Source: Pseudomonas fluorescens
Lineage (GTDB): Bacteria; Pseudomonadota; Gammaproteobacteria; Pseudomonadales; Pseudomonadaceae
Reading direction: 5' to 3'
Assembly: GCF_019212185.1 (NCBI RefSeq)
Contig: NZ_CP078138.1
Location: 3,392,501 to 3,456,500 of the forward strand
DNA length: 64,000 nucleotides
Shown: positions 24,731 through 41,666 of the stretch, piece by piece
Numbering within the stretch: the stretch's first letter is position 1
How the letters are laid out: every line of letters begins with the position of its first letter
Program-made: the position numbers and the translations under genes
The notes under the pieces: model-generated
What the model saw: the letters and a program-made list of their open reading frames with translations, nothing else
Told to the model about the DNA's origin: nothing
Databases searched by the model: none

Positions 24731-24765
24731 GTTGAATGTCCCGTTGAAATGAGGCGGTAAGTATA

Positions 24766-24783
24766 TAGATAGGTAACTATCTA
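24766..24783. promoter_or_regulatory. 18-bp palindrome upstream of gcd, candidate operator
   Basis: TAGATAG (24766-24772) and CTATCTA (24777-24783) are perfect inverted arms around GTAA, 36 bp before the gcd start in an unusually AT-rich stretch. The symmetry and spacing suit a dimeric TetR- or GntR-type repressor. No such regulator is encoded next to it. Confidence 0.5.
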
Positions 24784-25026
24784 GTTAAACCACAAATTCA
24801 CGGTCGAGGGTCGTTCGCAGGTTGTGGTCGCGCCTGATCGAAGAATCTGCCGTACCTCTTATCAATAGCGTTGAACTCTGCTTTTGTCGCATCCGTCCCT
24901 ATGTTCAGCAGCAATCGAAAGTCACTCCGGCCTAGGTGGGGGCTTGTATTCAGGGCGGCAGAGATTCAGATTACGCGTCCGGATTCAGTGACAGACTTCC
25001 AGGGAAGAACCATTTTGATTGCAACC

Positions 25027-25608
25027 ATGAAGCACCAAGCCGTCATTGCGCTGATCTGCGCCGCCTTTTCAGCGGGCCTCGCAGCGACCCCTTCAGCCGC
25101 CACACCAGCAATGCCCCAAGGCCGTACCGTCAAAGAAATGATGCCATCCGAGCCATTTCCCTCGACCTATCCCGGATTTGAAAACCAGAAGAGCCAGTTC
25201 CCGGCACAACTTGAAGGCAGTGGCGAGTTTGTGGTCACTCGAGTAGCGAGTGTTTGCGCGGAGCCAACCAACCCCATCAACTTCGCGATGGAGGCCGAGC
25301 ATTTCATCCGCATGGGCAACCAGACGGTGGCCGCCGAACTGGAGAAGCGCAACATCGACTGGGAAATGTGCGAAGCCTCGGTAGTCGGGCAAAAGCTCAA
25401 GGTGGTTCGGCTGCAACTATTGGCAATGGGCTGTGGCTTTCCTTTTGTCGGCGAGCAGAAAATTCCCTACGACCAGATCAGTAAACACGCCTGTTTTTAT
25501 GTCCCGGTGGTGGAGTTCAACGGCAAGGAACAGGCAGTGGCGAGTGATGCGTTGGACGGTTTCGAGGCGTTTGCGGTGGAGCGGTTGAAGGTTTATTTCA
25601 ACCAATAA
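25027..25608 (+). CDS. Secreted hypothetical protein
   Basis: I do not recognise the family. Start set at ATG 25027 (MKHQAVIALICAAFSAGLAATPSAA), which gives a clean signal peptide; the frame is open back to 24871. 193 residues. After the signal comes a proline-rich linker, then a compact domain with cysteines in VASVCAEP, WEMCEASV, AMGCGFPF and HACFYVP, which could form two disulfides in the periplasm. It is followed 36 bp later by the convergent HIU hydrolase-like gene. No function is proposed. Confidence 0.6.
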   Translation: MKHQAVIALICAAFSAGLAATPSAATPAMPQGRTVKEMMPSEPFPSTYPGFENQKSQFPAQLEGSGEFVVTRVASVCAEPTNPINFAMEAEHFIRMGNQTVAAELEKRNIDWEMCEASVVGQKLKVVRLQLLAMGCGFPFVGEQKIPYDQISKHACFYVPVVEFNGKEQAVASDALDGFEAFAVERLKVYFNQ

Positions 25609-25644
25609 GTTTTTTGCACACAAGAATGGATGCCTCCTTAACCC

Positions 25645-26055
25645 TCAATTCCCTCGGTAGGTAGAAAAGCCATAAGGGCTGAGCAGCAACGGGATGTGGT
25701 AGTGCGGGACGGTGCCGTCCACCTCGAATATGACCGGTACTTCAGGAAAGAAACTGGACGTATTGTGCGCCTTAAACCATTCCCCGGTTTTGAAGGTGAC
25801 ACGGTAGGTGCCTTTCTCCAGATCCCGACCTTCCGGATAGAGTCCGGTGACGCGACCTTGCTCGTTGGTGGCCGCGCTGTTGAGCATGTCCCAGTTTTTC
25901 CCCTCCTGTTTTTCCAGGGTGACATTGACCCCTGGGGAGGGCAGGCCATCCTGCAAGTTGAGGACGTGCACACTCAACGGATTGGCTGCCGCCAGGGCAA
26001 GGGATGAAATGGCACTCAATACGGCGCCAGCGAACAAGCTTTTCAATACAGTCAT
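25645..26055 (-). CDS. Periplasmic 5-hydroxyisourate hydrolase / transthyretin-like protein
   Basis: Start at ATG 26055 (AAGGAT upstream) gives 136 residues with a signal peptide (MTVLKSLFAGAVLSAISSLALAAA). The mature domain is transthyretin-like: LSVHVLNLQDGLPSPGVNVTLEK at the N-terminus with the catalytic His, and PHYHIPLLLSPYGFSTYRGN at the end. HIU hydrolases convert 5-hydroxyisourate to OHCU in urate breakdown. The family's C-terminal YRGS tetrapeptide is YRGN here, so the final catalytic-site Ser is replaced. It is 10 bp downstream of an HbpS-like gene and no other urate gene is near, so activity is uncertain. Confidence 0.8.
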   Translation of the reverse strand: MTVLKSLFAGAVLSAISSLALAAANPLSVHVLNLQDGLPSPGVNVTLEKQEGKNWDMLNSAATNEQGRVTGLYPEGRDLEKGTYRVTFKTGEWFKAHNTSSFFPEVPVIFEVDGTVPHYHIPLLLSPYGFSTYRGN

Positions 26056-26065
26056 GGAGATATCC

Positions 26066-26569
26066 TTAGTGCTTGAGGGAAGGTAAGACGTTGTTGATGG
26101 CAGCCACTGCACAGCCTTCGTCGTTTGCCGCGCCGCCGGCACCGGCCACTCCGATGGCGCCGATGACTTGCCCCTCGAACGTCAAAGGCATTCCGCCACC
26201 CAGGAGTAACAACTCATCAAGGGTGTTGAGGTTTTCCGCATCCGGATTGGCGCGAGCACGTTCTGCCAATAACCGCGTGGAGGTTTTGGTTGACAGGGCG
26301 GTATAGGCTTTGCGTTGCGCCGCCAGGGTGTTATGCGGGCCGACATCGTCATCCCGTTGCACGGCAACCAGATTGCCGCCGCGGTCAACCACGGCGGCAA
26401 CGGCTGTGCGGCCATCGGCGTGGCAGGCGGTGAGCGCGGCAGTCAACAAGTCGTTGGCCAGCGCCAGTGACACGTCCTTGCGCTGGGCAATTTGATCCGG
26501 GGCTGCAGCGGCGAATCCGGAGGTCATTGCCAGCGTGATCAGCCATGAAGTCGGTAGGCGGGTACCCAT
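26066..26569 (-). CDS. Secreted GlcG/HbpS-family heme-binding-like protein
   Basis: Start at ATG 26569 (AAGGAAAAA upstream), 167 residues with a signal peptide (LITLAMTSGFAAAA). The mature part is a GlcG/HbpS (DUF336) domain: AVAAVVDRGGNLVAVQRDDD, a central helix with NPDAENLNTL, GGGMPLTFEGQVIGAIGVAGA and DEGCAVAAI. HbpS binds heme and iron and modulates a sensor kinase in Streptomyces. Here the gene forms a short operon with a transthyretin-like gene and is divergent from a CopRS-type two-component system, which makes a sensory link plausible but unproven. Confidence 0.8.
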   Translation of the reverse strand: MGTRLPTSWLITLAMTSGFAAAAPDQIAQRKDVSLALANDLLTAALTACHADGRTAVAAVVDRGGNLVAVQRDDDVGPHNTLAAQRKAYTALSTKTSTRLLAERARANPDAENLNTLDELLLLGGGMPLTFEGQVIGAIGVAGAGGAANDEGCAVAAINNVLPSLKH

Positions 26570-26582
26570 GTTTTTTCCTTGT

Positions 26583-26606
26583 CGTAGGAGCCGGCTTGCC
26601 GGCGAA
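26583..26606 (+). repeat. REP element (single)
   Basis: CGTAGGAGCCGGCTTGCCGG followed by CGAA is a standard Pseudomonas REP. It sits just upstream of the HbpS-like gene start, within the 200-bp divergent promoter region. Confidence 0.65.
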
Positions 26607-26690
26607 GGCGATTTGCCTGACACACCACGACCCAGGTTTGGTCGGTCGGCGTCATTGCCCGGCATCATGCCCAGCCCACCCCGTCAGGAT

Positions 26691-26708
26691 GATTACCCCT
26701 TGATTACC
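26691..26708 (+). promoter_or_regulatory. Tandem GATTACC repeats 11 bp apart, candidate OmpR-type response-regulator site
   Basis: GATTACC occurs at 26691-26697 and 26702-26708, exactly one helical turn (11 bp) apart, the spacing used by OmpR/PhoB-family dimers. An ATTAC/GTAAT inverted pair overlaps the second copy (26703-26718). The site is 62 bp before the response regulator gene and between it and the divergent periplasmic pair, so autoregulation or divergent control is likely. Confidence 0.5.
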
Positions 26709-26769
26709 AACATGTAATGAAAGAAATCAGCGAACCGGGCTAGCCTATGCGCCAGTCCTGGAGGAAAAA

Positions 26770-27441
26770 ATGCGCATCCTGGTGGTTGAAGATGAAACGA
26801 AAATGGCTGATTACCTGCGAAAAGCCCTGACTGAGTCGGGCTATTCGGTAGAGATCGCCCTCGACGGGCTGGATGGCCAACATCTGGTGCAGGAGAGTGA
26901 ATTCGATCTGATCATTCTGGATGTCATGTTGCCGGGACTGGACGGTTGGCAATTACTGCAAGTCATCCGGCGCAAGTGGCAGACCCCGGTGCTGTTTCTG
27001 ACCGCACGGGATTCGGTTGATGACCGGGTCAAAGGGCTGGAGTTGGGGGCGGATGATTATCTGGTGAAACCCTTTTCCTATGCCGAACTGCTGGCCCGCG
27101 TACGCACTTTGTTGCGCCGTGGTCCGCCACGTGAGGTTGAGCATTTTTTGGTTGCCGATCTGAGCCTGAATCTGTTGCAACGCAAGGTCACCCGTAATGG
27201 TGAACGCTTGATCCTGACCAACAAGGAGTTTGCCCTGCTGCATCTGTTGGTCAGTCGTGAAGGGGAGGTGCTGTCGCGCTCGTTGATTGCCTCGCAGATC
27301 TGGAACATGAACTTTGACAGTGATACCAACGTGGTTGATGTCGCCATTCGCCGTCTGCGGGCCAAGGTTGACGATCCTTACCCGCTCAAGTTGATCCATA
27401 CGGTGCGTGGTATCGGTTACCTGCTTGAGGTGCAATCCTGA
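26770..27441 (+). CDS. OmpR-family response regulator, CopR/CusR type (heavy-metal class)
   Basis: 223 residues, GGAGG 6-7 nt upstream of ATG 26770. The receiver domain has E7-D8, phospho-acceptor D51 ([14 protein letters not shown]), the T/K pair in FLTARDS and [16 protein letters not shown]-terminal winged helix contains [28 protein letters not shown] and [20 protein letters not shown]. The sequence is typical of copper/silver/zinc regulators. It overlaps the sensor kinase and probably drives it and the divergent periplasmic pair. The metal or signal cannot be told from sequence. Confidence 0.92.
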
Positions 27442-28808
27442 AACTCTATCCCCATGCCCTGAGCCTGCGCCTGGCGGTGATGTTCGCGCTGGTCAGTGTG
27501 CTGCTGCTGGGCTCTATCGGCTTTTATCTTTATCAGTCGTTAGAGCGAGAAATTGCCTGGCGCGACGATCAGGCCTTGTTGGGTCGCCTGGAGCGCGTGC
27601 AAGCCTTGATCAACGACAGCGCAAGCATTGAGCAACTGCGCAATCGGCCAAAACTTTACGAAAACATGCTGGGCAACAGTGACAATCTACTGTGGGTTGT
27701 TGATAAAAGCGGTCAGGTGCTGATCGAAATCAACCCTGTAGACATGTCCTTGCCCAAGTTGCCTGCGACTGCCCAGGCTCGTCTGGGGGACGGTAACTCG
27801 TCGATTTCAGTACGACTCGCGTGGAAGGATCTCAACCAGGAGGGTCGTGGCTTGACCCTGATTGCTGGAAAGTTGTTGAGCGAGCGCGAACAGATGCTGG
27901 CGGCTTACCGACTCAAACTCTGGTTCGCCATGTCGGTCGGCGCACTGTTGGCGTTTGTACTCGGCGGCTGGGTCAGTCGGCGTGGCTTACGGCCTGTGCG
28001 GGTGCTGGCCAAGCACGCGGCTGCAATTGATGTTCAACATTTGCATCTACGGCTTAATGAATTCAATCAATTGAGTGAGCTGCAAGCCCTCAGCAATGCG
28101 CTAAACCAAATGCTCGCGCGTCTTGAAGATGGGTTCGCCCAGCTGTCCCGCTTTTCCGAAGACCTCGCCCACGAAATGCGCACGCCACTCAGCAATCTGA
28201 TGGGGCATACCCAGCAAACCCTGAGGTACAGCCGCTCGATTGAGGACTACCAGAACCTGCTGGTTTCCAATCAGGAAGAATACGAGCGACTGGCGCGAAT
28301 GATCGACAGTATGTTGTTTCTCGCCCGAACCGAGCATTCAAACGCCTCCTTGAATCGCCAGGTCATCGACCTCCATGACCTGGTTGAGCAACTCTGTGAG
28401 TACTTCGAAGGCGTTGCGCAAGAGCGCGATGTAACGCTGATCAATCAGGCCCAGGGCGAATTGCAGGCTGATCCAGTCTTAATCCGTCGAGCCTTGGCTA
28501 ACCTGCTGTCCAATGCGCTGCGTTATGGGGCACCCGCTGCGCAAGTGATCATTAGCACTATGGCAAGCGAAGAGGGCATCGCAGTCTCTGTTCACAACCA
28601 GGGCGAGCCCATTGCCGCGGAACACCTTCCGCGACTGTTTGAGCGTTTCTATCGATGCGACCCGTCACGCAATCAGCCAGACGACTCCGGAGGCCTGGGA
28701 TTGGCAATTGTTCGCTCAATCATGCAATTGCATGACGGGCAAGTCACCGTCGATAGCCGTCAATCAGGCACCTGTTTCAGCCTCGTGTTTCCGATTCGAA
28801 GCGCTTGA
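27438..28808 (+). CDS. Heavy-metal-type sensor histidine kinase (CopS/CusS-like), probable CTG start
   Basis: The N-terminus of this family (K-x-P-x-S-L-R-L-A-x-x-F-A-L-V) is found in frame from codon 27438: [19 protein letters not shown]. That codon is CTG, overlaps the regulator stop as CTGA, and has GAGG 7 nt upstream. GTG 27477 would cut most of the first cytoplasmic segment. From CTG the protein has 456 residues: a membrane helix about 12-32, a periplasmic loop, a second helix ([20 protein letters not shown]), HAMP, H-box H245 ([12 protein letters not shown]), N-box ([10 protein letters not shown]) and G-box ([11 protein letters not shown]). It phosphorylates the upstream regulator. Its 3' end overlaps tspO by 45 bp. 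Confidence 0.88.
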
Positions 28809-29246
28809 GTGGTGCTTGCGCAGAATTGAAAAATTCAAGGCGCAGGCCACGCACAGCCAGGCCAGGTACGGAAACAGGATCAAACCCGTGATCAGATCCA
28901 GCCGCACGGCCATCACCACCATTGCCGCGACCACCAGCCAGAGCACGACAAGGATCACCATGCTGGCGAAAATGTGGTGCGCGCCAAAGAACACCGGCGT
29001 CCAGAGCGTATTAAGCGCAATCTGCGCCGCCCACAAAGCCAATACCACTTGGCTCCCCGGCATCAAACTCAGCCGGTACCCAGCCCAGGCGAGTAACAGG
29101 TAAATGACCGACCAGGCCAGCGGAAACGCCCAGCCGGGAGGGGTGAAGCCGGGTTTGGCAAGGGATTCGTACCACTCTCCTGGTTTGAAAAAGAAACCTG
29201 TGCTGGCCGCGGCACCGCAGGCCAGGAGGAAAATAAAAAAAGTCAT
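28764..29246 (-). CDS. tspO: TspO/MBR family membrane protein
   Basis: 160 residues with five membrane helices, matching TspO. Family features are PGEWYESLAKPGFTPPGWAFPLAWSVIYLLLAWAGYRL after helix 1, the WAAQIALNTLWTPVFFG segment and the PYLAWLCVACALNFSIL helix (aromatic-rich, AxxLN). Bacterial TspO binds porphyrins and affects tetrapyrrole and stress responses. It is convergent with the sensor kinase gene and overlaps its last 45 bp. TspO and the HbpS-like protein in one locus hint at heme or porphyrin stress. Confidence 0.88.
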   Translation of the reverse strand: MTFFIFLLACGAAASTGFFFKPGEWYESLAKPGFTPPGWAFPLAWSVIYLLLAWAGYRLSLMPGSQVVLALWAAQIALNTLWTPVFFGAHHIFASMVILVVLWLVVAAMVVMAVRLDLITGLILFPYLAWLCVACALNFSILRKHHSSASNRKHEAETGA

Positions 29247-29336
29247 GACCGTTCCTTAGTGGGGAGCTGTTGTAGTGAGTTGCGGCGCAATGCTTGCCCG
29301 CTCATAGAGAGGACTCCTCCTGCGGTTAGAAGTTTG

Positions 29337-29364
29337 CTCAGAGCAATGACTTTAGTTCTCTGAG
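29337..29364. other. Small hairpin upstream of the kinase-like gene
   Basis: CTCAGAG (29337-29343) pairs with CTCTGAG (29358-29364) across 14 nt, in the 172-bp gap between tspO and the dTMP kinase-like gene. It could be an operator or leader hairpin. Nothing else is evident in this gap. Confidence 0.3.
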
Positions 29365-29418
29365 AGGCAGATGCTTCGATCAGGTAGAGTGCTGATCCAT
29401 TTAATCGTTGTGTGACAC

Positions 29419-30027
29419 ATGAAACGTCCGCTGTTCATTTCTCTGGATGGCCCCAAGGGTGCCGGCAAAACCACGTTGTTGGAGGCCGTGACCCAAGTAC
29501 TGCGGGCCGACAACAAACAAGTCATCCGCCTGTGCGAGAAAAAAAGTGATCCCTTGCGGGGTGAAACCATGGCCCTCGTTAACCAACTGGTGCGAAATCC
29601 CAGCCGGACTCTGGAACGGGAGGTCTGTGAACGTTTTGCCGACAGCCGTGCCTGGATCTCCCAACACGTGCTGCCAAAACAGCCGCTCGGCAGCATCATC
29701 CTGATCGATCGCTGGTACCCATCGGAGGCCGCGTTCCGCCGGCTGATCCCATTCGCCGAGATTCTGCAACTGAACCTCGAACGCAACGTGCGGGTGCCAG
29801 ATCTGCATGTGGGGGTGGTCGCTGATCCTGAACTTTCGTGGGCGAGGGCAGCGGCGCGTCGGCGTGGGTTGGGCAGTACGGTAATTCATACGCTGGAGGA
29901 GCATGTCGCCTGTACCCGGGCGTTTGAGCGGGCGGTTGCGGATAATGGGTGGGTGTTGTGTCGGAATGAAGGTTCTATTGAAGAAGCTACGTTGCGGGTG
30001 GTTGCGCAGATTTATGGGGTGCTTTGA
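29419..30027 (+). CDS. dTMP kinase-like P-loop nucleotide kinase
   Basis: 202 residues. P-loop at 10-18 (DGPKGAGKTT), the substrate-side DRW motif (LIDRWYPSEAAF, where thymidylate kinases have DRY/H) and an arginine-rich lid (WARAAARRRGLGS). The fold and motif order are those of thymidylate kinase, but it is divergent and stands alone near the terminus, so it is probably not the housekeeping tmk. The substrate could be dTMP or another nucleotide or deoxynucleoside. Confidence 0.7.
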   Translation: MKRPLFISLDGPKGAGKTTLLEAVTQVLRADNKQVIRLCEKKSDPLRGETMALVNQLVRNPSRTLEREVCERFADSRAWISQHVLPKQPLGSIILIDRWYPSEAAFRRLIPFAEILQLNLERNVRVPDLHVGVVADPELSWARAAARRRGLGSTVIHTLEEHVACTRAFERAVADNGWVLCRNEGSIEEATLRVVAQIYGVL

Positions 30028-30239
30028 GGTGGTTTACAGATACGCTTTTTCAACGCGCCCGGATGATTCTGTTTCAGCGGCGAACGCCCTTGACCCACTC
30101 CACTGGGGCGAGGGCGTGATGGAGGATTAACCTGCAGACCTCATAAGACACTACTCGTGTCTGCGGCTCCTATTTTCAGTTGTGGCACTTTGCTCGGATC
30201 AGTCTAGGGTTATCCAATATCAACCAGGGAGAGGAAGCT

Positions 30240-31442
30240 ATGAGGCTGAAATATCAGATGCTGACTACTGCTACTAAGGGCAGTTTCTTAGCCATTTCGC
30301 TTCTACTCGCAGGTTGTTTCACTGGGAGTATGCACGCTCCAGCCCCTGTTCCGGCTCCAGACCAGCAGATTGAGACGGACATCAAGCTGATTACTGCCCC
30401 TAAGCAGCCTCTAGAGGACGGTATTGCCAAATCGCCGACAAGTTCTTACGAGAACGTCATTATTCGAACGTTCTACGCAACTAATCGAAATGCGACCGGC
30501 TCCCTACAAGCTTATGATGCATACGGTCGCGAAGAGGGCCCTCTGAGTTATGGCGTAGCGGACGTCAGTATCCCGCGTGATCATCGTCTGGGTAGGATGG
30601 AGGCACCGTTCCTAGGTCTGAAGGCGCTAGAGAGTCCAAGAAACGATCTTATGCTTCTGGGTATCCAGGCCGTGACAAGGGATCAACTCCTCGCTGCTAT
30701 ACACGAGAAAATCAGAGAGAGTAAAGGGAAGAGTGCGCTTGTTTTCATACACGGTTACACCGCGTCCTTTGAAGATGCTGCAAGACGTACTGCTCAAATG
30801 AGTTATGACTTGGGTTTCGACGGGGCTCCAATTTTCTACAGCTGGCCCTCACAAGAGGCGATGCCAGCGTATAGAGACGACGAAAAAATAATTGCGCGGG
30901 CGACCCCAAAGATCAAAAAATTTCTAAGCGACGTTTTCCAAGAAACAGATGCACAGAACATCTATCTGGTGGCTCATAGCATGGGAAATCGGGGGATGGC
31001 TGTAGCTATCTCTGAATTGCTAAATGAAAAGCCAGCCATGCGGCTTCGATTGAAGCAGCTCATTTTGACCGCACCAGATATCGGTGTGGATGAGTTCAAG
31101 GGTATAAGTAAGGCGCTGGTCAATGCCGGCGCACCGGTCACTTTGTATGCATCATCCAAAGACAAGGCTCTATTAGCGTCTAAAGTAGTCAACACAATGC
31201 AGAGAATCGGCGATACCAACCGGGTAGTAACGGTCGTCAAAGGGATCGAAACGATTGATGCTAGCGACGTAAGTACCGACTTTTTGGGCCATTCTTATTT
31301 TGCGGAAAATGGCTCTGTCGTCTCAGATATGTTTTACCTATTCAGAACTGATTTGCGACCTGAACATCGTTTCAATATGAAGACAATCAGTAGCGCTGAA
31401 GGCGATTACTGGAAATTCAAGCCTGGTGTTTGCGAACCATAG
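30240..31442 (+). CDS. Lipoprotein with DUF900 alpha/beta-hydrolase domain
   Basis: Start at ATG 30240 (GGGAGAGGAAG upstream). 400 residues with a lipobox (ISLLLAGC, Cys about residue 30) and a proline-rich linker. A DUF900 hydrolase follows: NVIIRTFYATNRN, LVFIHGYTASFEDAARRTAQM, nucleophile elbow VAHSMGNRGM (Ser in GxSxG-like AHSMG), acidic loop APDIGVDEF, and GHSYF with the catalytic His. DUF900 proteins are esterase-like with unknown substrates. Base composition is clearly more AT-rich than neighbouring catabolic genes, and codon choice (aat, tta, aga) differs, which suggests acquisition by transfer at the terminus. Confidence 0.82.
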   Translation: MRLKYQMLTTATKGSFLAISLLLAGCFTGSMHAPAPVPAPDQQIETDIKLITAPKQPLEDGIAKSPTSSYENVIIRTFYATNRNATGSLQAYDAYGREEGPLSYGVADVSIPRDHRLGRMEAPFLGLKALESPRNDLMLLGIQAVTRDQLLAAIHEKIRESKGKSALVFIHGYTASFEDAARRTAQMSYDLGFDGAPIFYSWPSQEAMPAYRDDEKIIARATPKIKKFLSDVFQETDAQNIYLVAHSMGNRGMAVAISELLNEKPAMRLRLKQLILTAPDIGVDEFKGISKALVNAGAPVTLYASSKDKALLASKVVNTMQRIGDTNRVVTVVKGIETIDASDVSTDFLGHSYFAENGSVVSDMFYLFRTDLRPEHRFNMKTISSAEGDYWKFKPGVCEP

Positions 31443-31470
31443 AAGCTAGGGAGGAGCCCGTCTTTCCACA

Positions 31471-31761
31471 ATGCTGGCCATTTATTGCTATCTGTTACGG
31501 ACTCTATCTAACATCGCTACCTTGGCGCATGGCGTTGAGCTGTTTGAATCGCGAAGAACGGATAACCTGCAAACCATCTGTGTCGGTCATATGCTGAGCG
31601 CAGTCTTTGAACAGTGGCATTTGGAACAAACGCCGGAGAACCGAGCGAAAATTCTAGATAAGCTCAAGCTCGCTTGCGCGAGAGAATTCGCAGGTGGCGA
31701 ACCATTGTTCAAAACATTGAACAATGCGGATGGGATTCGTGAAATTCGCTTTGACGCATAA
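31471..31761 (+). CDS. Small hypothetical protein, orphan
   Basis: 96 residues (MLAIYCYLLRTLSNIATLAHG...), 28 bp after the DUF900 lipoprotein gene and equally AT-rich. I do not recognise the family. It looks soluble and helical with no signal peptide. A GGGAGGAG box lies 14-20 nt before ATG 31471, longer than usual, so the start is uncertain. It probably travels with the lipoprotein gene. A chance frame cannot be excluded. Confidence 0.45.
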   Translation: MLAIYCYLLRTLSNIATLAHGVELFESRRTDNLQTICVGHMLSAVFEQWHLEQTPENRAKILDKLKLACAREFAGGEPLFKTLNNADGIREIRFDA

Positions 31762-32133
31762 AAAAGCGGAGAGATGAGGGCTACAAACAAGAGATTGCAG
31801 TGGCGAAGGAATTATACAAGCAGTTCGGCTGATGGATGGCTGACCCCCTAGGCTTGTTTTCTCCAGTCGGCATTTCATCGTGCTAGTGTGCCGGTCATCG
31901 CGAGATTTGTTGTTTTTTAGAGCTTGCAAGCTAATGATTTTTCGTGGCTGAGTCGCGTGACGACATTCGTAGGTAAGTGGAAACAGACAACAGCTCATGA
32001 ACATTTCTAACATGGCATCGTATTTAACATAATATACATTATGCGAAGTGACGTGTGTTCTTGTCAGGACCAGTCCAGGCCAGATTTCAAGCTGCAGCAA
32101 CGCAATCTCACCTCGATTTCCCTCGCCCCAAAT
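31762..32133. other. Gene-free AT-rich terminus gap containing dif
   Basis: No convincing coding frame lies here. The stretch is AT-rich and contains the dif-like site at 32022-32049. A minus-strand frame across 31654-32100 has unlikely composition (many Cys, His, Ser) and no ribosome-binding site, so I do not call it a gene. Confidence 0.6.
32022..32049 (-). other. dif: dif: XerC/XerD chromosome-dimer resolution site
   Basis: On the plus strand the site reads XerD arm ATTTAACATAA (32022-32032), centre TATACA (32033-32038) and XerC arm TTATGCGAAGT (32039-32049). Reversed, the XerD arm and centre match E. coli dif exactly. The XerC arm keeps the core CGCATAA and varies only at its outer end, as Pseudomonas dif sites do. 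FtsK-orienting octamers support it: GGGNAGGG occurs on the plus strand left of the site (9607, 10084, 11491, 18409, 22148, 25934) and on the minus strand right of it (34489, 35336, 43450, 43793, 52470). Both sets therefore point at this position. Confidence 0.93.
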
Positions 32134-32917
32134 CTAAAACAGCTCATCCAGCTTTTCGAAGAACTCTCGGTGCAATGGTTCGTCACGTTCCCCTAAACCC
32201 TCAAGGAAAATCTCTGCGACGTTTTCTGAAATGTCTTCGCGCAGATTGCGATGGATAAATGCGATGTCCAGCCAGCGGTCAGCGACGCCGCCGCGGCCCA
32301 AGTCGATGAAATGCAGTTGGTCCTGGGTATCGACGAAGACATTGGCGTCGCACAGATCGCCGTGGCTGAACACCGATTGCTCCTTTGGGATTGTGGCGTG
32401 TAGATGGGCCAGGAGTTGTTCGGGTGTATCCAGGTTCGGCCATTGGTTGAGGTCGTGTTCTTTGGCGTGCAGGTTATGTGCAAGCAGGTATTCGAGTTCT
32501 GTCAGGCGTACGGTAGCGCTGCTGTCGAATGAGCAATCAGCGATGGACACCGCTTGCAGTTGCCGCAGTGCTCCGTGAAGCAACTCCAGGGCCACGGATG
32601 GATTGTGCAGACGATTTTGGATGGGCTCACCGGGTACGCAGCGTGAGATCATGAATTCGCCCTGGTCATTGTCGGTAACGACAACAACTTTCCGGGACGC
32701 TCAACCGGCCATCCAGCCATTGCAGGACGCGGGCTTCACGCAGGACGCTGTAAGTCGTGGGCACGAAGGTTACAGCGCTGGTTTTGAGAAAGAAGCGTTC
32801 ACTGCCACGTTCGAAGCTGAAAACACTCGCAGGCGATTCTCCTATTTCGTCGGCTATTAGTGCGCAATCGCCAATGAAACGTGCAATTTCCATGGGTAAT
32901 TTGCTTGATCTCTGCAT
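32134..32917 (-). pseudogene. Aminoglycoside 3'-phosphotransferase-like gene, frameshifted
   Basis: Two frames join into one APH-type kinase of about 261 codons, close to full length for APH(3'). The N-terminal frame (32917 to about 32690) holds FERGSERFFLKTSA and VLREARVLQWLDGRLSVPE. The C-terminal frame holds VVVVTDNDQGEFMISR, catalytic HGDLCDANVFVD and FIDLGRGGVADRWLDIAF. Deleting one base in the TTT/AAA run at 32689-32691 would read continuously through VPEVVVV. The gene is therefore inactivated by a one-base insertion, or the base is a sequencing error. If intact it would phosphorylate a small hydroxylated substrate, not necessarily an antibiotic. Confidence 0.8.
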
Positions 32918-32960
32918 GAGTGTTGGGTCCGTACCCTGCTCTCCATTAAGCTGATTTAGT

Positions 32961-32996
32961 TATAACTCAACTAAAGAGACATTTAGTTGAGTTATA
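32961..32996. repeat. 36-bp AT-rich perfect palindrome (15-bp arms, 6-nt centre)
   Basis: TATAACTCAACTAAA (32961-32975) and TTTAGTTGAGTTATA (32982-32996) are perfect inverted arms around GAGACA. It lies between the LuxR gene stop (33009) and the broken phosphotransferase start. It may be a promoter/operator for the latter or a terminator for luxR. Arms around a 6-nt centre also recall a tyrosine-recombinase crossover site, and dif is 0.9 kb away. Confidence 0.75.
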
Positions 32997-33008
32997 TATA
33001 ACGCCCCC

Positions 33009-33818
33009 TCAAGCCCACTCTGCCCTCGTCGCTAACCCAAACAACTCCCGCAGCCCTCCAATCCCCAACTTGCGATACAAACGCTTGATATAGGTGCTCG
33101 CACTCATCGGCTTCACGCCCAACTGTTCTGCAATGTCTTCCACCTCAAGCCCGCACATGATCAGCCGCAGCAGTTCCTGTTCGCGGTAGGTCAGTTCCAC
33201 GTGCTGTTGTCGGATCACCCTTTCCGTCAGCAACAATGGCAGTTCATTGGCTTGCAGATAAGCGTGGTAATGCAGGCGCACGGCCTGGATCAGCAAGGGA
33301 GCGATGGTTTCCAGGTAGTGCATCTCCCCTGCTGAAAAATGCCCGTGCTCGCGACCACGGTAGAAATTCACCGAGAGCCAGCGGTTGCTTTCGCAGTGAG
33401 TCAGCAAGGCGACTCGCTCGGAAATCTGCGGTTGCTCATAGCAGATGCGCCGGTATTCGCCGTGGCTGATGTCGTCGATGGCCTGGCGCTGGACGATGAT
33501 GTGGGTACCCGGCGTGCCCTGGCTCATGGCTTGCTGATTGCCATCCTGGGCGTAGAAACGTTGGGCGTATTTGTTGGAGATGTCCGGCAGCGAGACCTCT
33601 CGTGCGCGGTCGGCGAACGAGAACACCTGTGGGTTGCGGCGATGGGGATAGGCAAAGATGGTGCATTGGGCCAGCGGAACGCCTGGCCCAATGACTTGCA
33701 GCAGATCTGCCGCCAGGTACTTGCTGCGGTTCAGGCCGATCCGTGCCAGCAGATTGGCCGCGTGCCCCATGTTCAGGCTGTGATCACTGCTGCTGGAGCG
33801 TAATGGCCAATACTGCAT
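33009..33818 (-). CDS. LuxR-family regulator (aromatic hydroxylase operon)
   Basis: 269 residues. The C-terminal LuxR helix-turn-helix is clear at about 205-265: LTYREQELLRLIMCGLEVEDIAEQLGVKPMSASTYIKRLYRKLGIGGLRELFGL. The N-terminal 190 residues form an uncharacterised sensor-like domain, without the receiver aspartate of NarL-type proteins and without an obvious autoinducer pocket. It is the last gene of a minus-strand set (FAD monooxygenase, DUF2783-like, MFS), 51 bp after the MFS gene, so it probably controls that set in response to its substrate. Confidence 0.85.
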   Translation of the reverse strand: MQYWPLRSSSSDHSLNMGHAANLLARIGLNRSKYLAADLLQVIGPGVPLAQCTIFAYPHRRNPQVFSFADRAREVSLPDISNKYAQRFYAQDGNQQAMSQGTPGTHIIVQRQAIDDISHGEYRRICYEQPQISERVALLTHCESNRWLSVNFYRGREHGHFSAGEMHYLETIAPLLIQAVRLHYHAYLQANELPLLLTERVIRQQHVELTYREQELLRLIMCGLEVEDIAEQLGVKPMSASTYIKRLYRKLGIGGLRELFGLATRAEWA

Positions 33819-33869
33819 GACGATTTACCTGAGAGTCTTGAGCGCTCGAAGGCGCGACTTTACCACCCT

Positions 33870-35219
33870 TCAGCGCGTCGCCGGCAGACCGACTCGTCCG
33901 CCGATCGGCAGGCGTAGCGCCAACAAGGCACCGAGGATCATCAGGATCGCCGCATAGGCGAAGCCGGAGCCGAAGCCCTGGGTCAGGTCTTTCAGCCAGC
34001 CGATCACCAACGGGTTGACCGCTGAACCTATGTTGCCGATGGCGTTGATCACCGCGATGCCGACGGCGCGAGCCTGGAAGCTCAGGCTTTGGTCAGGGGT
34101 GGTCCAGAAAATCGACATGGCCGTGTAGGAACCGCTCGCCGCCATGCACACGCCCAGCAGTTGCAACGGTGGATAGGCGGACAACGCGGTGAGTATCCAC
34201 CCCGCCGCTGCCAGCAACATCGGCAGCACCAGGTGCCAGCGGCGTTCGCGGGTGCGATCCGAATGCAGGCCCCAGACCACCATCAGAACAATGGTGCAGA
34301 CCTGCGGAATGGCGGCCAGCAAGCCGATTACGCCGTTACTGCTGGCGCTGTTGAAGCTTTTCACGATCAATGGCGTCCAGACCGCGATCATCGCCAGGGT
34401 GTTGACCAGGCAAAAGTACACCACGCAGAACAGCAGGATCTGTGGCGACAACAGCTCGCTCCAGATGCTGCGCGGGCGCCCTCCGCTGCCCTGCCCCGCA
34501 TCACTGCGCTCCGCAGCCAGCGCCTGTGCCAGCACTTGCTGTTCTTCCCGGTCCAGCCACTTGGCCTGTTGCGGACGGTCATCGAGGTAGTAGAACACCA
34601 CGAAACCCATCAGCACCGAGGGCAAGCCTTCCAACACGAACAGCCACTGCCAGCCTTTCAAGCCCCATATTCCGTCCATACCCAGGATCAAACCCGACAG
34701 CACCGAGCTGAATCCGGCAGTGAATGGCATGGCGATCATGAACAGCGCGTTGGCCCGGGCGCGGTAGGCCGCCGGAAACCAGAAGGTCATGTACAGCAGC
34801 ACGCCGGGCAGGAACCCGGCCTCGGTGATGCCGACCAGGGTGCGTAATAAATAGAGGGAGGTGGCGTCGGTGGCCAGCGAGGTGCACGTAGACGCCAGGC
34901 CCCAAGCGATCATCAGGCTGCCGATCCAGCGTCGCGCACCGATCCGGGCCAGCGCCATGTTGCTGGGAATGCCGCAGCAGATATAGGCGATATAGAAGCA
35001 GGTCGAGGCCAGGCCAAACTGAGTGCCGCTCAGCCCGAGGTCACCCATCATGGTCAGGCCGGCGAAGCCGATGTTGATGCGATCGAGGAACGACAGCACG
35101 AAGCAGACGAACAGAAAAGCCAGCAAACGCCGGGAGACTTTTTTGCACACCTGTTGGCAGCGATCGTGGGCGCCGGCCGCGGCCGAGACAACCGCAGAGG
35201 CAATATGACGGTGAGTCAT
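33870..35219 (-). CDS. MFS transporter, anion:cation symporter (ACS) family
   Basis: 449 residues, AGGAAG upstream of ATG 35219, 12 predicted membrane segments. ACS features are FLDRINIGFAGLTMMGDLGLSGTQFGLASTCFYIAYICCGIPSNMALARIGARRWIG in helices 1-3 and GITEAGFLPGVLLYMTFWFP in helix 5. ACS permeases carry organic anions such as phthalate, 4-hydroxyphenylacetate or sugar acids with H+. Its position after an aromatic-ring monooxygenase suggests import of that enzyme's substrate. Confidence 0.87.
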   Translation of the reverse strand: MTHRHIASAVVSAAAGAHDRCQQVCKKVSRRLLAFLFVCFVLSFLDRINIGFAGLTMMGDLGLSGTQFGLASTCFYIAYICCGIPSNMALARIGARRWIGSLMIAWGLASTCTSLATDATSLYLLRTLVGITEAGFLPGVLLYMTFWFPAAYRARANALFMIAMPFTAGFSSVLSGLILGMDGIWGLKGWQWLFVLEGLPSVLMGFVVFYYLDDRPQQAKWLDREEQQVLAQALAAERSDAGQGSGGRPRSIWSELLSPQILLFCVVYFCLVNTLAMIAVWTPLIVKSFNSASSNGVIGLLAAIPQVCTIVLMVVWGLHSDRTRERRWHLVLPMLLAAAGWILTALSAYPPLQLLGVCMAASGSYTAMSIFWTTPDQSLSFQARAVGIAVINAIGNIGSAVNPLVIGWLKDLTQGFGSGFAYAAILMILGALLALRLPIGGRVGLPATR

Positions 35220-35253
35220 CGAGGTACTTCCTGATTGTTGTTATAGGAAGGCG

Positions 35254-35279
35254 CGCCGGCCTATGGACACGGGCCGGCG
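35254..35279. terminator. GC-rich hairpin between DUF2783-like and MFS genes
   Basis: CGCCGGCC (35254-35261) pairs with GGCCGGCG (35272-35279) over a 10-nt loop. With no U-run it may reduce read-through or protect the upstream message rather than end transcription. Confidence 0.4.
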
Positions 35280-35294
35280 GCGATGGAACGAAGG

Positions 35295-35483
35295 TCAGAG
35301 GTCGAGCGCGGCCTGGCGCGTCAGTTCGAGGAATGCCCTGCCCTCGCCTATTTTCCGGGCGCTGAGCAGCGCCAGCTTGACCAGGAACAGCTGACGCTGA
35401 TCCTCGGCGATTTGATCGAGGGTTTCGGCAAGGTGGTCGTAGATCTGCTCGACGTCGGTGATGCTCAATTGCGGCTTGTTCAT
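35295..35483 (-). CDS. Small DUF2783-like protein, companion of FAD monooxygenase
   Basis: 62 residues from ATG 35483 (MNKPQLSITDVEQIYDHLAE), with GAGG 8 nt upstream; ATG 35501 overlapping the monooxygenase stop is the alternative. The pattern of an acidic helix, QRQLFLVKLALLSARKIGE and FLELTRQAALDL is like DUF2783 proteins, which accompany MhpA-type flavin hydroxylases. It immediately follows such a hydroxylase here. The function of the family is unknown; a helper or subunit role is inferred from this pairing. Confidence 0.65.
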   Translation of the reverse strand: MNKPQLSITDVEQIYDHLAETLDQIAEDQRQLFLVKLALLSARKIGEGRAFLELTRQAALDL

Positions 35484-35493
35484 TTTATTGTCC

Positions 35494-37194
35494 TCACTCA
35501 TGACCCAAGGCCAGGTCGACCGCTCGGCGCAAGGCGTCGTCGTCGAGTTGCTGCCAGCGTGCACAGACATGCTGATCGGGACGCGCCAGATAGGCACTGC
35601 CCGCTCGCGCGGCGTATTTTTCGCTGAAGTGGCCGTTGTGGTCTTCGATCACTGCGTCTGCGCCAACGACTGTGGACTGCCCGGCGCTGGCCACGGCCAC
35701 GACCTGCAATGGCACACCGCGCTCGCGCAGGGCTTTTACCTGTTGCTGGACCTCCTCCGGCAACTGCGCCGCCTCAGTGAAATAAAGCAGGCAGAACGCG
35801 GCGCCCAGCCGATCGAAAAGAAACCCCTCGTCGGCCAGCTTGATATTGAGCAAGGGCGCACCCTGATGCGGACCACCGCCGAAGCGCTGATTGTCGTCGT
35901 CCCTGCAGTTGAGGACCGAATCCACATAGTCATGGGGCCGCGATGTGCGCCAGTGATAGAGCGGGCGAACGAATTCCTGGGTCAGCGAAAGCGACAGCAC
36001 GGCGTCGCGCAGCAATCGATAGCCTGCAGTCGGCGGCGTCATGAAACGGGTGCTCTTGCCCGCTTCGGCGATAATTTCCCGTGCAGCCCCTACCCGCTCC
36101 TCGCTGTAGGACGTCAGCAGGCCCGGGCCGGCAAGGCCCTTGATCGACAGCGCGAGTTTCCAGCCCAGGTCGTGGCAGTCCTGGAAGCCGGTGTTGGCCC
36201 CGCGCACGCCGAAGATCGGCAACAGATGGGCGGCGTCGCCGGTGAAGATTACGCGGTTGTGGATGTAGTCCGGCAGGGTCAATGCGCGGGCCGAATACAC
36301 CGAGCACCAGTCCATTTCCCACTGCGGATTTTCCACTCCGACGATCTTCAGTTGGGCGTTGATGCGCTCGCGCAGGGATTCGGGCGCGAGGGCCTGCTCA
36401 GGCGTTTCATCACGGGGCAGTTGATAGTCGATGCGCCAGATGTTGCCCGGCTCGCGGTGCATCAGCACGGTGTTGCCGGGATTCCAGTGCGGATCGAAAT
36501 AGGCCAGGCGTTCGGTCGGCAGGTCCAGTTCGATCTTGATGTCGGCGATGACAAATCGCCCTTCATAGGAAGCGCCTTCCAATTGGAGGCCCATCAGGCT
36601 GCGAATGGCCGAGCGCGCGCCGTCGGCGGCGACCACCCAGTTGGCTTGCAATTGATAGGCGCCCGCCGGGGTGTCGATATCCAGTGTCGCGTAGTCAGTC
36701 GCCTGTCTCAGGCCTTCGACCTTGTTGCCCCAGCGCAATTGCACCAGCGGATTGGCGTCGCAGGCGTCGACCAGGAATTGTTCCAGGCAAGGCTGCTGCA
36801 GGTTGGTCATCGGCGGGAAGCGATCGTCCGGATCATGGGGCGCGTCCATGCGGAACACCCGCTGGTTGCGATAGAACGAGTTGCCCGAGCGCCAGCCCAG
36901 GCCTGCTTCGGTGACCCGCTCGGAGACCCCAACCTGCTGGAGGATTTCCAGCGAACGACGGGTGAAGACGATGGCGCGACTGCCTTCGCTGACCTGGCGT
37001 TCCGACTCCAGCACGATCGAGGGGATGCCATGGCGCGCCAGGTCCAGTGCGGTGGTCAGGCCGATTGGCCCGGCGCCGACAATCACCACCGGGTGGCGCT
37101 GGACGGGCTCGACGCCGACGCTGGCGGTATGGGCAGGGAACACCTGGTAATCGAAATAAATAGAGCGACGAGGCTCGGCGAGGGGTGTGTGCAT
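35494..37194 (-). CDS. FAD-dependent aromatic monooxygenase, MhpA/PHBH-like
   Basis: 566 residues. The dinucleotide fold VIVGAGPIGLTTALDLARHGIPSIVLE lies near residues 37-63, the DG motif in WVVAADGARSAIRSLMG, and the FAD-binding GD motif in VIFTGDAAHLLPIFGVRGANTGFQDCHDLGWKLAL. A C-terminal thioredoxin-like domain (GRGG-like LGAAFCLLYF...VGADAVIEDHNGHFSEKYAARAGSAYLARPDQHVCARW) is as in MhpA-like hydroxylases. The enzyme would hydroxylate a phenolic ring with NAD(P)H and O2. It heads an operon with a DUF2783-like protein, an ACS transporter and LuxR. No ring-cleavage dioxygenase is present, so the pathway continues elsewhere. Confidence 0.87.
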   Translation of the reverse strand: MHTPLAEPRRSIYFDYQVFPAHTASVGVEPVQRHPVVIVGAGPIGLTTALDLARHGIPSIVLESERQVSEGSRAIVFTRRSLEILQQVGVSERVTEAGLGWRSGNSFYRNQRVFRMDAPHDPDDRFPPMTNLQQPCLEQFLVDACDANPLVQLRWGNKVEGLRQATDYATLDIDTPAGAYQLQANWVVAADGARSAIRSLMGLQLEGASYEGRFVIADIKIELDLPTERLAYFDPHWNPGNTVLMHREPGNIWRIDYQLPRDETPEQALAPESLRERINAQLKIVGVENPQWEMDWCSVYSARALTLPDYIHNRVIFTGDAAHLLPIFGVRGANTGFQDCHDLGWKLALSIKGLAGPGLLTSYSEERVGAAREIIAEAGKSTRFMTPPTAGYRLLRDAVLSLSLTQEFVRPLYHWRTSRPHDYVDSVLNCRDDDNQRFGGGPHQGAPLLNIKLADEGFLFDRLGAAFCLLYFTEAAQLPEEVQQQVKALRERGVPLQVVAVASAGQSTVVGADAVIEDHNGHFSEKYAARAGSAYLARPDQHVCARWQQLDDDALRRAVDLALGHE

Positions 37195-37279
37195 CGCGAT
37201 GCATCTCCGGTTTTTATGGTTATGGGCGTGAGCCGGTGCGCAAGTGGAGATGACTTTAAGCGCAGCGCGCTAATGCGGA

Positions 37280-37337
37280 TGTCCCCTTGAGGGGACAACT
37301 TGCAGGAACAGCCATGCCCTGAGGGCTCAGGGTATGG
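37280..37337. terminator. Two tandem hairpins after the small periplasmic gene
   Basis: TGTCCCC/GGGGACA (37280-37286 with 37291-37297) and a 12-bp stem CCATGCCCTGAG/CTCAGGGTATGG (37312-37323 with 37326-37337, one G-T wobble). They lie between the minus-strand small periplasmic gene and the monooxygenase start. They are probably a terminator for the former, although U-runs are absent. Confidence 0.5.
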
Positions 37338-37352
37338 GTGGGATGATGTGGA

Positions 37353-37631
37353 CTAGGGGTTCGGCTCTTTCGACATGTTGTCGACGCGCATGATCGCCTG
37401 GGTGGCCAGGGTAATGCATTTCCTGTCGTCGTTCGCTGCGTTGGCGGCCACAGCGTCGGCCTGCATCTGCCGCACTTGGGTGGCGTTGTTTTCCGAGGTG
37501 GCAGGCAAGGTGGTGACCTTGTCCCGGAGTTCTTGCAGCTTCAGCGTGCACAGGTCGTGGTCGGAGGCGAAGACGGGAGATGCCAGGGTGGTGATGGCGA
37601 TGAGCATGCCGGTCAGGACGGTACGGTTCAT
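37353..37631 (-). CDS. Small periplasmic hypothetical protein
   Basis: 92 residues with a signal peptide (MNRTVLTGMLIAITTLASPVFA). The mature 70 residues are helical, with two cysteines (HDLCTLKLQ and DRKCITLATQAIMRVDN) that could pair. GGAGACCCCC precedes the ATG. I do not recognise the family, though short helical periplasmic proteins of this look are common in Pseudomonas. A perfect 12-bp palindrome sits 25 bp upstream. Confidence 0.65.
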   Translation of the reverse strand: MNRTVLTGMLIAITTLASPVFASDHDLCTLKLQELRDKVTTLPATSENNATQVRQMQADAVAANAANDDRKCITLATQAIMRVDNMSKEPNP

Positions 37632-38094
37632 GGGGGTCTCCTTGCGGTTTGATCAGGTGTGCACACCGATGTTGTGAACAACGCACTCCCCTTGTGGGTT
37701 GAACACATTTGTTCTGTATTTGAGCGCCACCCGTCTGTGCGAGTTCAACCCCCTGCCTCCTCATACCGCACGTTATCCCGCGCTGCCCCCTGCCTTTCCG
37801 GCCCTCAGTACAGCCACAAAGCACCGTTTTCGTCATTAACATGCGATAACGCTCAATTATTCATTGTTATCAAGCAATCAAATCAGCACGAAAAACAAAC
37901 ATAAATTAGTACGTAATTACATGGTACATACCGTACGATGTCAGGTGTAATCAAAACGACTCAGCCAGCGCCAAAAAACGCTCAAAACCAGGTGCAAATT
38001 CTTGTTTTCCAAGGTTTTTTGCTGTTTTCAACAATTTGCGCTCTACTTTCACACTGCAAACCACCCCCTTACGCCCCTTCGGAGTACGCCCCCG
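37632..38094. promoter_or_regulatory. 463-bp AT-rich promoter region with several inverted repeats
   Basis: No gene is seen. It holds GGTGTGCACACC (37656-37667, perfect palindrome), GATAAC/GTTATC (37845-37850 and 37866-37871, 15 nt apart), and a GTACG...CGTAC pair around a run rich in GTAC near 37911-37938. The right part is markedly AT-rich and precedes the recombinase gene. These may be operators or part of an attachment site. Confidence 0.4.
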
Positions 38095-39093
38095 TTGAAC
38101 AAGGTTGACCGCTATCTCAAGGCCGGTACCCGGGAGAACACCCGGCGCAGTTACCGTGCGGCGGTGGAGCATTTCGAGGTGACCTGGGGCGGTTTTCTGC
38201 CGGCCACGGGCGACAGCATCCTGCGATATCTGGCCGAATACGCCGATCAGCACACCGTCAGCACCTTGAAGCAGCGGCTGGCGGCGCTGGCGCAATGGCA
38301 CATCACCCAGGGTTTTCCAGACCCGACCAAGACCCCCAGCGTGCGACAGATGATCAAGGGCATTCGCACCCTGCACCCAGCCCAGGAAAAACAGGCACCG
38401 CCGCTGCTTCTGCAGCATCTGGAACAGGCGGTCAATTGGCTGGAGAACGACGCGCAGCAGGCCGCGGCGCGCCATGACCATGGCACGGTGATGCGCAATC
38501 GCCGGGATATCGCTCTGGTGCTGATCGGTTTTTGGCGTGGTTTTCGCGGGGATGAGCTGTCACGCCTGCAGGTTGAACATATCCAGGTAGAGCCCGGCGC
38601 CGGGATCACCTTCTACCTGCCCCACAGCAAGGGCGACCGCCAGCACCTGGGCACCACCTTTCGCACCCCGGCGCTGAAGAAATTGTGCCCGGTCCAGGCC
38701 TATTCCAACTGGATCGGCGCAGCGGGGATTGCCTATGGCCCGCTGTTTCGCAAACTCGACCGCTGGGGCAACCTGGCCGAGGACGGACTCAACAGCAACA
38801 GCCTGATCCCGGTGCTGCGTCGAGTGTTCCAACGCGCCGGCGTGTCAGCGCAGCTGTACACCAGCCACTCCCTGCGTCGTGGGTTTGCGACCTGGGCGGC
38901 GGCCAATGGCTGGGACATCAAGGCGATCATGAGTTACGTCGGCTGGAAGGATGTGAAGTCGGCGCTGCGCTACGTCGATGCCTCGTCATCCTTTGGCGAC
39001 CTGGCCGCCTCTGCGCAGGCCATCGAGGTTTTCAGCGAGGTGTCGAAGAACGACGAAATCAACCGGCTGGAACGGCGCTCCGCCAAGCAATAA
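38095..39093 (+). CDS. Orphan tyrosine recombinase / site-specific integrase
   Basis: The start is probably TTG 38095 (LNKVDRYLKAGTRENTRRSYRAAVEHF), with GGAG about 10 nt upstream; an ATG at 38002 gives an implausible Phe/Cys-rich leader. 332 residues. A SAM-like core-binding domain covers about 5-95. Catalytic residues are Arg in WRGFRGDELSRL, Lys in LPHSKGDR, H-x-x-R in SHSLRRGFATW, Trp in VGWKDVKSALRY and the final Tyr (RYVDAS). All five look present, so it should be active. It carries no phage or transposon partners, and its 3' end overlaps the opposing lysR gene by 124 bp. Confidence 0.85.
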   Translation: MNKVDRYLKAGTRENTRRSYRAAVEHFEVTWGGFLPATGDSILRYLAEYADQHTVSTLKQRLAALAQWHITQGFPDPTKTPSVRQMIKGIRTLHPAQEKQAPPLLLQHLEQAVNWLENDAQQAAARHDHGTVMRNRRDIALVLIGFWRGFRGDELSRLQVEHIQVEPGAGITFYLPHSKGDRQHLGTTFRTPALKKLCPVQAYSNWIGAAGIAYGPLFRKLDRWGNLAEDGLNSNSLIPVLRRVFQRAGVSAQLYTSHSLRRGFATWAAANGWDIKAIMSYVGWKDVKSALRYVDASSSFGDLAASAQAIEVFSEVSKNDEINRLERRSAKQ

Positions 39094-39891
39094 AGATAGG
39101 TCTCGGTGTACAGCGGATCGCCTTCGAGGCGGAGGGTGCGCAGCCGTGGATCGGCGATGAACTCCGCCTCGGACACCGCCCCCATGCCCAGGCCACGGAC
39201 CACCGCCTCACGCAGCGCTTCACGACTGCCAATCTCCATGGCGATCCGTGGCACCACCCCCGCCGCTGCCAGCGCGTCATCCAGCACCGCCCGGGTAGTG
39301 GAGCCCGGCTCGCGCTGCAACAGCGCCTGACCTTCCAGTTCATCGAGGCGAATCGTCCCGCGTCCGGCCAGCGGATGCTTGTAGTGCACAAATAGAATGA
39401 TCGCGTGCCGCGCATAGCGCATAGCGCACCGCATACAGCCCCGGATCCTCATGCAGCCCGGCAAGCACCGCAATGTCGGTGCTGTAGCGCTCGAGATCGG
39501 CCAGCACCTGGGCCGAGTTGCCGACCCGGATCGACACATCGATGCGCGGATGGCGCTGCAGGTAATGGTCGACCATTTCAATCACATGGAAAGGCCCCAC
39601 CGCACCGACCTTGAGCTGGCCACTGTCGAGCTGACCAGAGTCGCGCAACAAGGTGTGCGCGTCCATGTCCAGAGCGGCCATGGCCTGGGCGATCGGCAGC
39701 AATTGCCGGCCAACATCGGACAACTCAATCCGCCGCCCACGACGATGAAACAGTTCCAGGTGGTACTGGCGCTCCATGCTCTGTACCTGGGTGGTCAGGG
39801 TCGGCTGGCTGAGGCCGAGCGAGCGAGCCCCGGCGCTGAAGCTGCCGTGGCGGGCGACGGCGAGAAAGGCACGCATTTTCGCGCTGGACAT
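38970..39891 (-). pseudogene. LysR-family regulator of the phosphonate island, split by a 7-bp tandem duplication
   Basis: The start at 39891 reads MSSAKMRAFLAVARHGSFSAGARSLGLSQPTLTTQVQ, a LysR helix-turn-helix, and continues to GLYAVRYAL. The frame then breaks and resumes one register over with RYARHAIILFVHYKHPLAGRG, REPGSTTRAVLDDAL and GMGAVSEAEFIADPRLR. At the break GCGCATA is duplicated in tandem (39410-39416, 39417-39423); removing one copy restores a normal protein of about 305 residues. The gene is divergent from phnD and so probably regulated phosphonate uptake. Its tail overlaps the recombinase gene. It is inactive as written, but the tandem repeat could revert by slippage. Confidence 0.88.
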
Positions 39892-39946
39892 CCATAGATT
39901 CCTTCAATAGTTGGCTAGCGGAACCCATATTGAATTGATCGTATGA

Positions 39947-41664: not shown

Positions 41665-41666
41665 AC

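Follow-up and report, generated by a model that had tools for sequence, protein, structure and literature searches.

Introduction

In Escherichia coli, FtsK at the septum loads on the octamer GGGNAGGG and is driven along both chromosome arms toward dif, where it reaches a XerC/XerD tetramer synapsed on two copies of the site and triggers first XerD and then XerC. Recombination in this order converts a chromosome dimer to monomers. Here, we describe the dif site of a Pseudomonas fluorescens chromosome (assembly GCF_019212185.1), which lies in a 64,000-nucleotide stretch of contig NZ_CP078138.1 (positions 3,392,501 to 3,456,500 of the forward strand), hereafter the window. The 28-bp site at window positions 32022-32049 is very probably the chromosomal dif, forming the core of a longer conserved stretch in the genus whose flank blocks, judged from sequence, stand at fixed distances on both sides.

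The arrangement of this terminus is of a kind already known, and dif itself is textbook material. For P. aeruginosa PAO1, a switch of both octamers and GC skew at dif has been reported (PMC6199493). Work on Enterobacteriaceae from 2025 regards dif-type sites as 28 bp long and free of accessory sequences (PMC11724359), while the plasmid sites cer and psi are described as needing about 180-200 bp bound by PepA together with ArgR or ArcA (PMC5357621; PMC11724359). A cleavage hot spot of topoisomerase IV (Topo IV) is placed beside E. coli dif (PMC10117906; PMC4865107), at a sequence that is not the consensus for the enzyme (PMC10117906). A search of the text of a dif prediction study returned nothing about flanks (PMC3025954), and a literature search limited to open-licence papers, within the text that these offered, returned no description of dif-flank conservation.

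The chromosomal dif site

The site lies between neighbouring genes on the minus strand and reads, from XerC to XerD, ACTTCGCATAATGTATATTATGTTAAAT, with the XerC arm at 32039-32049, the centre TGTATA at 32033-32038, and the XerD arm at 32022-32032. A preliminary description of this DNA, made from the single sequence, had proposed a dif that matches in the full XerD arm, the centre, and the inner part of the XerC arm, and searches of the window, of shuffled sequence, and of the genome bear this out. The 25-base dif core has one match in the window and none in 100 shuffles, while the 24-base core has a single match at three or fewer mismatches in the whole genome, a single contig of 6,342,245 bp. 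A second dif-like site, for which that description had suggested a search, does not appear: no second dif or attachment site occurs genome-wide at three or fewer mismatches of 24, and no other 28-mer within nine mismatches occurs in 2.0 Mb of sampled stretches, where dif itself is split by a stretch border. A search of the window for known RNAs gives no Rfam match at gathering scores. Across the genus, 145 of 149 genomes have a match at three or fewer mismatches, and each has exactly one. Of the remaining four, one (G146) gains a site under a looser pattern, and three (G069, G072, and G075, two of them at least 99% complete) have no dif-like site even then. When applied to 28 genomes of the genus, the looser pattern also finds extra Xer-type sites in three (G014, G115, and G126).

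Fifteen copies of GGGNAGGG occur in the window, an ordinary number given the 12.0 expected, and their polarity is non-random, with 14 of 15 concordant (one-sided binomial p = 4.9e-4). All seven to the left of dif are on the plus strand (7201, 9607, 10084, 11491, 18409, 22148, and 25934, spanning 7201-25941), and seven of the eight to the right are on the minus strand (34489, 35336, 36088, 42090, 43450, 43793, and 52470, spanning 34489-52477), the eighth lying on the plus strand at 37131-37138, 5.1 kb right of dif. The preliminary description had listed eleven octamers, each of which is present on the strand it gave, and had missed those at 7201 (plus), 36088 (minus), 37131 (plus), and 42090 (minus); its claim that polarity is uniform on each side holds on the left and fails on the right, at 37131. 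Within 400 kb of dif on either side, there are 55 plus-strand and 4 minus-strand copies on the left, and 2 and 50 on the right (Fisher p = 3e-24). Sixty outer 20-kb samples hold 78 plus and 19 minus copies before dif in contig order, and 3 plus and 52 minus after it. With the three samples below dnaA (0 plus, 4 minus) assigned to the other arm, dnaA being at 177 kb, the arms split at dnaA total 133 plus and 19 minus, and 5 plus and 106 minus (Fisher p = 2e-46), in 100 stretches that cover 2.0 of the 6.34 Mb. Of all octamers with 25 or more occurrences in the 800 kb around dif, GGGCAGGG ranks second for strand switching (62 to 5). Cumulative GC skew within the same 400 kb on either side reaches its maximum 5.6 kb from dif. 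In the 2.0 Mb covered, both octamers and skew flip as the preliminary description had predicted. The site is about 76 kb off the point opposite dnaA, which is taken as the marker of oriC.

The recombination machinery is likewise represented. The XerD model matches at 1,308,093 with 388.8 bits, over its cut-off, and again at 6,331,126 with 282.2 bits, below the cut-off, the latter being taken as XerC without use of a XerC model; the FtsK gamma domain matches at 4,352,119 with 94.7 bits. The genome is thereby predicted to encode XerD, a XerC-like protein, and FtsK with its gamma domain. Because the site is the single match in the genome, is intergenic, lies near the antipode of dnaA, coincides with the octamer switch and with a skew turn within 6 kb, and shares its genome with these three proteins, we identify it as dif.

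Conserved blocks beside dif in the genus

While the preliminary description was right about the identity of the 28-mer, it did not capture the complete extent of the element, as the flanks are also conserved in relatives; this had been missed because a single sequence cannot show conservation. We compared 146 genus loci, comprising the own locus and 145 fetched ones (five further loci, L264-L268, were left out), of which 85 are non-redundant, defined without a tree as sharing fewer than eight 12-mers in their outer flanks. At 100 far positions (−110 to −61 and +88 to +137 from the dif start), the information per position averages 0.041 bits, with a maximum of 0.175. Against this background, blocks stand out at −43 to −35 (up to 0.90 bits), −22 to −18 (up to 0.63), −8 to −4 (up to 1.15), +29 to +38 (up to 0.95), and, at a lower level, +46 to +50 (0.18-0.29), with positions between them falling to background (0.02 bits at both −13 and +28). 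The blocks persist in the 85 loci whose outer flanks are unrelated, each being present in part of the loci and not in all. The inner blocks mirror one another about the dif centre, where the in-register score is 1.318 and the next best of 41 registers reaches 0.681. Taken together, the genus dif is, as read from these loci, the core of a conserved stretch from about −43 to +56, with symmetric wings just outside the Xer arms, a box 32-43 bp out on the XerC side, and a box about 20 bp past the XerD arm.

In the window, all four parts are read on the minus strand. The XerC-side wing, CACACGTC, lies at 32050-32057 (−8 to −1; genus consensus AATAYRWN) and is marked among the 146 loci by A at −7 (85%), T at −6 (71%), and A at −5 (66%), while the XerD-side wing, ACGATGCCATG, lies at 32011-32021 (+28 to +38; genus consensus NAYRTRTT) and is marked by A at +29 (71%), T at +32 (78%), and T at +34 (70%). 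Further out, the XerC-side box, GCTTGAAATCTG, occupies 32081-32092 (−43 to −32, with CTTSAAATCTG near −42), and the XerD-side box, ATGTTAGAAATGTTCATGAGC, occupies 31993-32013 (+36 to +56), with a TTCAT core at 31997-32001. A word scan of the 85 non-redundant loci, with p-values corrected for all words and positions and taking no account of kinship beyond the redundancy filter, recovers AATCTG at −37 (18 loci, p = 4e-38), GTTCAT at +47 (14 loci, 3e-29), GTAT at +31 (21 loci, 1e-30), and TATA at −8 (14 loci, 3e-21). A XerC-side box model built from the 84 other loci, with the own locus excluded, ranks the own box first of 3,997,000 positions on the sampled own chromosome (13.67 versus 11.84 for the next), and with the XerD-side model 19 of 3,994,400 positions, the own included, score as high as the own locus. 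In leave-one-out scoring, the 99th percentile is passed by 44 of 85 loci with the XerC-side box model, by 65 with the XerD-side model, and by 61 and 63 with the models of the two wings. As a candidate sigma-70 promoter, the XerC-side box was rejected on inspection of the sequence, its spacing to the −10-like hexamers in or beside dif being unsuitable.

The orientation of dif relative to dnaA varies: in 20 genus genomes (L622-L641), it is the same in eight and opposite in six, the other six having no dnaA in the first 4 kb, and in the genome described here dif points opposite to dnaA. The asymmetric flanks are therefore not bound to one replichore, and since the two orientations are so nearly balanced, inversions around the terminus seem common in the genus.

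Flanks in other lineages and on control Xer sites

How far the blocks extend beyond the genus was followed in three further sets. An Enterobacterales-rich set uses 78 of 80 listed loci (118 stretches were found), 58 of them non-redundant, and still includes a small number of non-enterobacterial rows, among them L339, L341, L375, and L382. Two named Pseudomonas records left out of it share the flank boxes, L332 the XerC-side one and L333 both, one of the two being P. violetae. Other genera of the family supply 66 loci (48 non-redundant), among which L273 and the chosen site in L454 may be mobile copies, and an uneven draw from the class supplies the 30 loci listed for 180 genomes with a match (28 non-redundant). 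As controls, at least 120 loci from viral contigs with a full-arm Xer site were used, L544 being dropped for a site at its end; 66 are non-redundant at fewer than six shared 12-mers.

The Enterobacterales-rich set has the wing position and TTCAT at +48 in common with the genus, but lacks the XerC-side box. Scored against the 95th percentile of shifted controls, the genus XerC-wing model carries over to 11 of 58 Enterobacterales-rich loci, 22 of 48 from other genera, and 8 of 28 from the class; the XerD-wing model to 15, 34, and 8; and the TTCAT-box model to 17, 13, and 2. In the word scan, TTCAT at +48 recurs both in the Enterobacterales-rich set (10 loci, p = 3e-12) and in other genera of the family (5 loci, 1e-4), the latter also showing GTATT at +31 (10 loci, 7e-16). 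The Enterobacterales-rich set additionally yields GATTCT at −21 (17 loci, 1e-39) and CAAAAC at −31 (7 loci, 2e-9), and its outer position is very pronounced: 81% of the loci have A at −5, 96% have C or T at −4, and 91% have T at +32. A single XerC-side box shared by this set and the genus was considered and dropped at 0 of 58 transfers, although AAATCTG and CAGATTT are reverse complements.

T at +32 occurs in 67 of 85 genus loci and 53 of 58 Enterobacterales-rich loci, versus 9 of 32 viral-contig sites with other centres, against a background of 22-26%, and TTCAT occurs in none of those 32. Viral-contig sites with the dif centre carry T at +32 in 18 of 22, some of these rows probably being a host dif that adjoins a prophage. 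Because T at +32 is far rarer on viral sites with other centres, the XerD-side wing is, by this comparison of sequences, tied to chromosomal dif more than to Xer sites generally. These controls are imperfect, as the XerC-side wing of other genera and the A(−5)/T(+32) pair, treated below, show.

Neighbouring genes and additional Xer sites

The gene adjoining dif (32134-32652, minus strand) matches the phosphotransferase (APH) family, and its start appears to be missing because the match covers profile positions 77-238 of 239. On the other side, the open frame at 31450-31761 ends 260 bp from dif, and G+C drops from about 0.61 to 0.52 toward the site over 24000-34000. A phage-integrase-family protein (PF00589) is encoded at 38002-39093, 6 kb from dif, and lies outside the genome's 11 XerD-model matches.

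Elsewhere in the genus, a 19.9-kb stretch of one genome (L494, from G014) carries three partial dif sites in inverted orientation, whose near flanks are identical. They are spaced 3.9 and 7.0 kb apart, lie 7-18 kb from the true dif, and look like a tandem array of a Xer-integrated element. Some genomes with a normal dif carry second Xer-type sites with other centres on different contigs (L493, L483, and L478-L482); these are probably plasmid or element Xer sites.

Alternative explanations

One alternative is a plain 28-bp dif, with flank blocks that stem either from common descent close to a fixed anchor or from promoters and terminators of the adjacent genes. The published record leans this way, with variable flanks in a survey and dif treated as a bare 28 bp (PMC2731167; PMC11724359), as do the resemblance of some XerD-side stretches to modules shared by related genomes and the partial occurrence of every block. 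However, conservation is not graded by distance, being near zero at −13 and +28 and high at −37 and −7, and the blocks survive in 85 loci without related outer flanks. In addition, TTCAT at +48 is common to three sets, and the two wings show mirror symmetry around the dif centre. We regard this explanation as unlikely.

The flanks, and chiefly the XerD-side modules, could instead have been left behind by mobile elements that exploited XerCD to integrate at dif. Among the loci listed, several different XerD-side modules recur by eye beside different XerC-side flanks. With at most 8 mismatches of 25 allowed, module A is present in 31 of 146 genus loci and in 5 of 49 from other genera or families, the latter count rising to 7 at 9 mismatches. 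The three inverted partial sites near dif in G014 fit the same picture. On the other hand, similarity among type-A loci decays gradually, from 0.97 at 20 bp to 0.55 at 80 bp and 0.13 at 1 kb, with no single border, and viral-contig Xer sites with other centres show no TTCAT and a near-background frequency of T at +32. This origin seems to us somewhat less likely still. Finally, that the site is a decoy or the attachment site of an integrated element, with the true dif elsewhere, is highly improbable: 28-34 kb is AT-richer than its surroundings and the integrase-family gene is close by, but both octamers and GC skew switch here, and neither the genome-wide search (three or fewer mismatches of 24) nor that of the 2.0 Mb sampled (nine mismatches) contains a second candidate.

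A possible composite dif

We tentatively propose, as a reading that is possible though short of probable, that dif, in Pseudomonas-type and in enterobacterial genomes alike, is a composite site spanning about 100 bp, in which wings would be read by Xer in its FtsK-activated chromosomal mode, a lineage-specific box would serve Topo IV, and the TTCAT box would serve another terminus factor. Through the wings, the Xer subunits, or a partner that acts at chromosomal dif, would make outer contacts with the DNA. The XerC-side box may be the seat of a partner recruited by XerC, most likely Topo IV, which would remove the last links between sister chromosomes; from our own analysis, we hold the Topo IV assignment to be conceivable and, taken by itself, rather doubtful. 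For the XerD-side box, docking of FtsK is one possibility.

Several observations weigh against this account of dif and its flanks. The own wings fit the consensus weakly (per-position p = 0.018 on the XerC side and 0.058 on the XerD side), and the XerC-side box is not universal, with AAATCTG at −38 in 29 of 146 loci and AAAT in 25 of the 85 non-redundant ones. Its genus model exceeds the 95th percentile of shifted controls in 0 of 58 Enterobacterales-rich loci, 9 of 48 from other genera, and 2 of 28 from the class; the Enterobacterales-rich set has a block of its own, with CAGATT at −23 and CAAAAC at −31, that is strongest at about −31 to −16. Because the genus model fails in that set, the box is equated with the Topo IV position of E. 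coli by distance alone. Class-wide, almost nothing passes the word scan, the sole word being AATA at +28 (5 loci, p = 0.02). On the XerC side, the wing of other genera does not differ from controls (A at −5 in 18 of 48 versus 9 of 32, p = 0.47; A at −7, p = 0.17), and the pair A(−5)/T(+32) is found in 6 of 32 control sites (19%), above a background of 5-7.5%. The octamer at 37131 is directed away from dif. From the literature, a study of 161 proteobacterial dif sites terms the flanks highly variable (PMC2731167), and in E. coli gel shifts led the authors to describe Topo IV binding at dif as independent of sequence (PMC4865107).

If the composite reading is true, the final step of decatenation would be coupled to dimer resolution in the DNA itself. 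Conserved flank boxes at set distances offer specific bases to alter when asking what positions Topo IV, and perhaps FtsK, at the terminus, and they might help to tell a chromosomal dif by its sequence from Xer sites on plasmids or mobile elements.

Comparison with known systems

In its core, the site resembles dif of E. coli and P. aeruginosa, sharing with them the XerD arm, the centre, and the inner XerC arm, and lying as a single copy at the switch of GGGNAGGG and GC skew. The XerC arm differs at its outer end, opening with ACT here, GAT in PAO1, and GGT in E. coli, a difference that falls inside the range of variation in the genus. Unlike the published 28-bp definition, the genus dif is accompanied by conserved flank blocks, and their fixed distances appear to be new relative to the usual description of the site. 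With the Topo IV hot spot of E. coli, the genus box 32-43 bp out on the XerC side agrees in distance only, the E. coli side being read as the outer XerC side, while the block of the Enterobacterales-rich set differs from the Pseudomonas box in sequence and lies closer to dif. As with the plasmid sites cer and psi, DNA beside the XerC arm would matter; in contrast to those sites, the blocks at the genus dif are short and two-sided.
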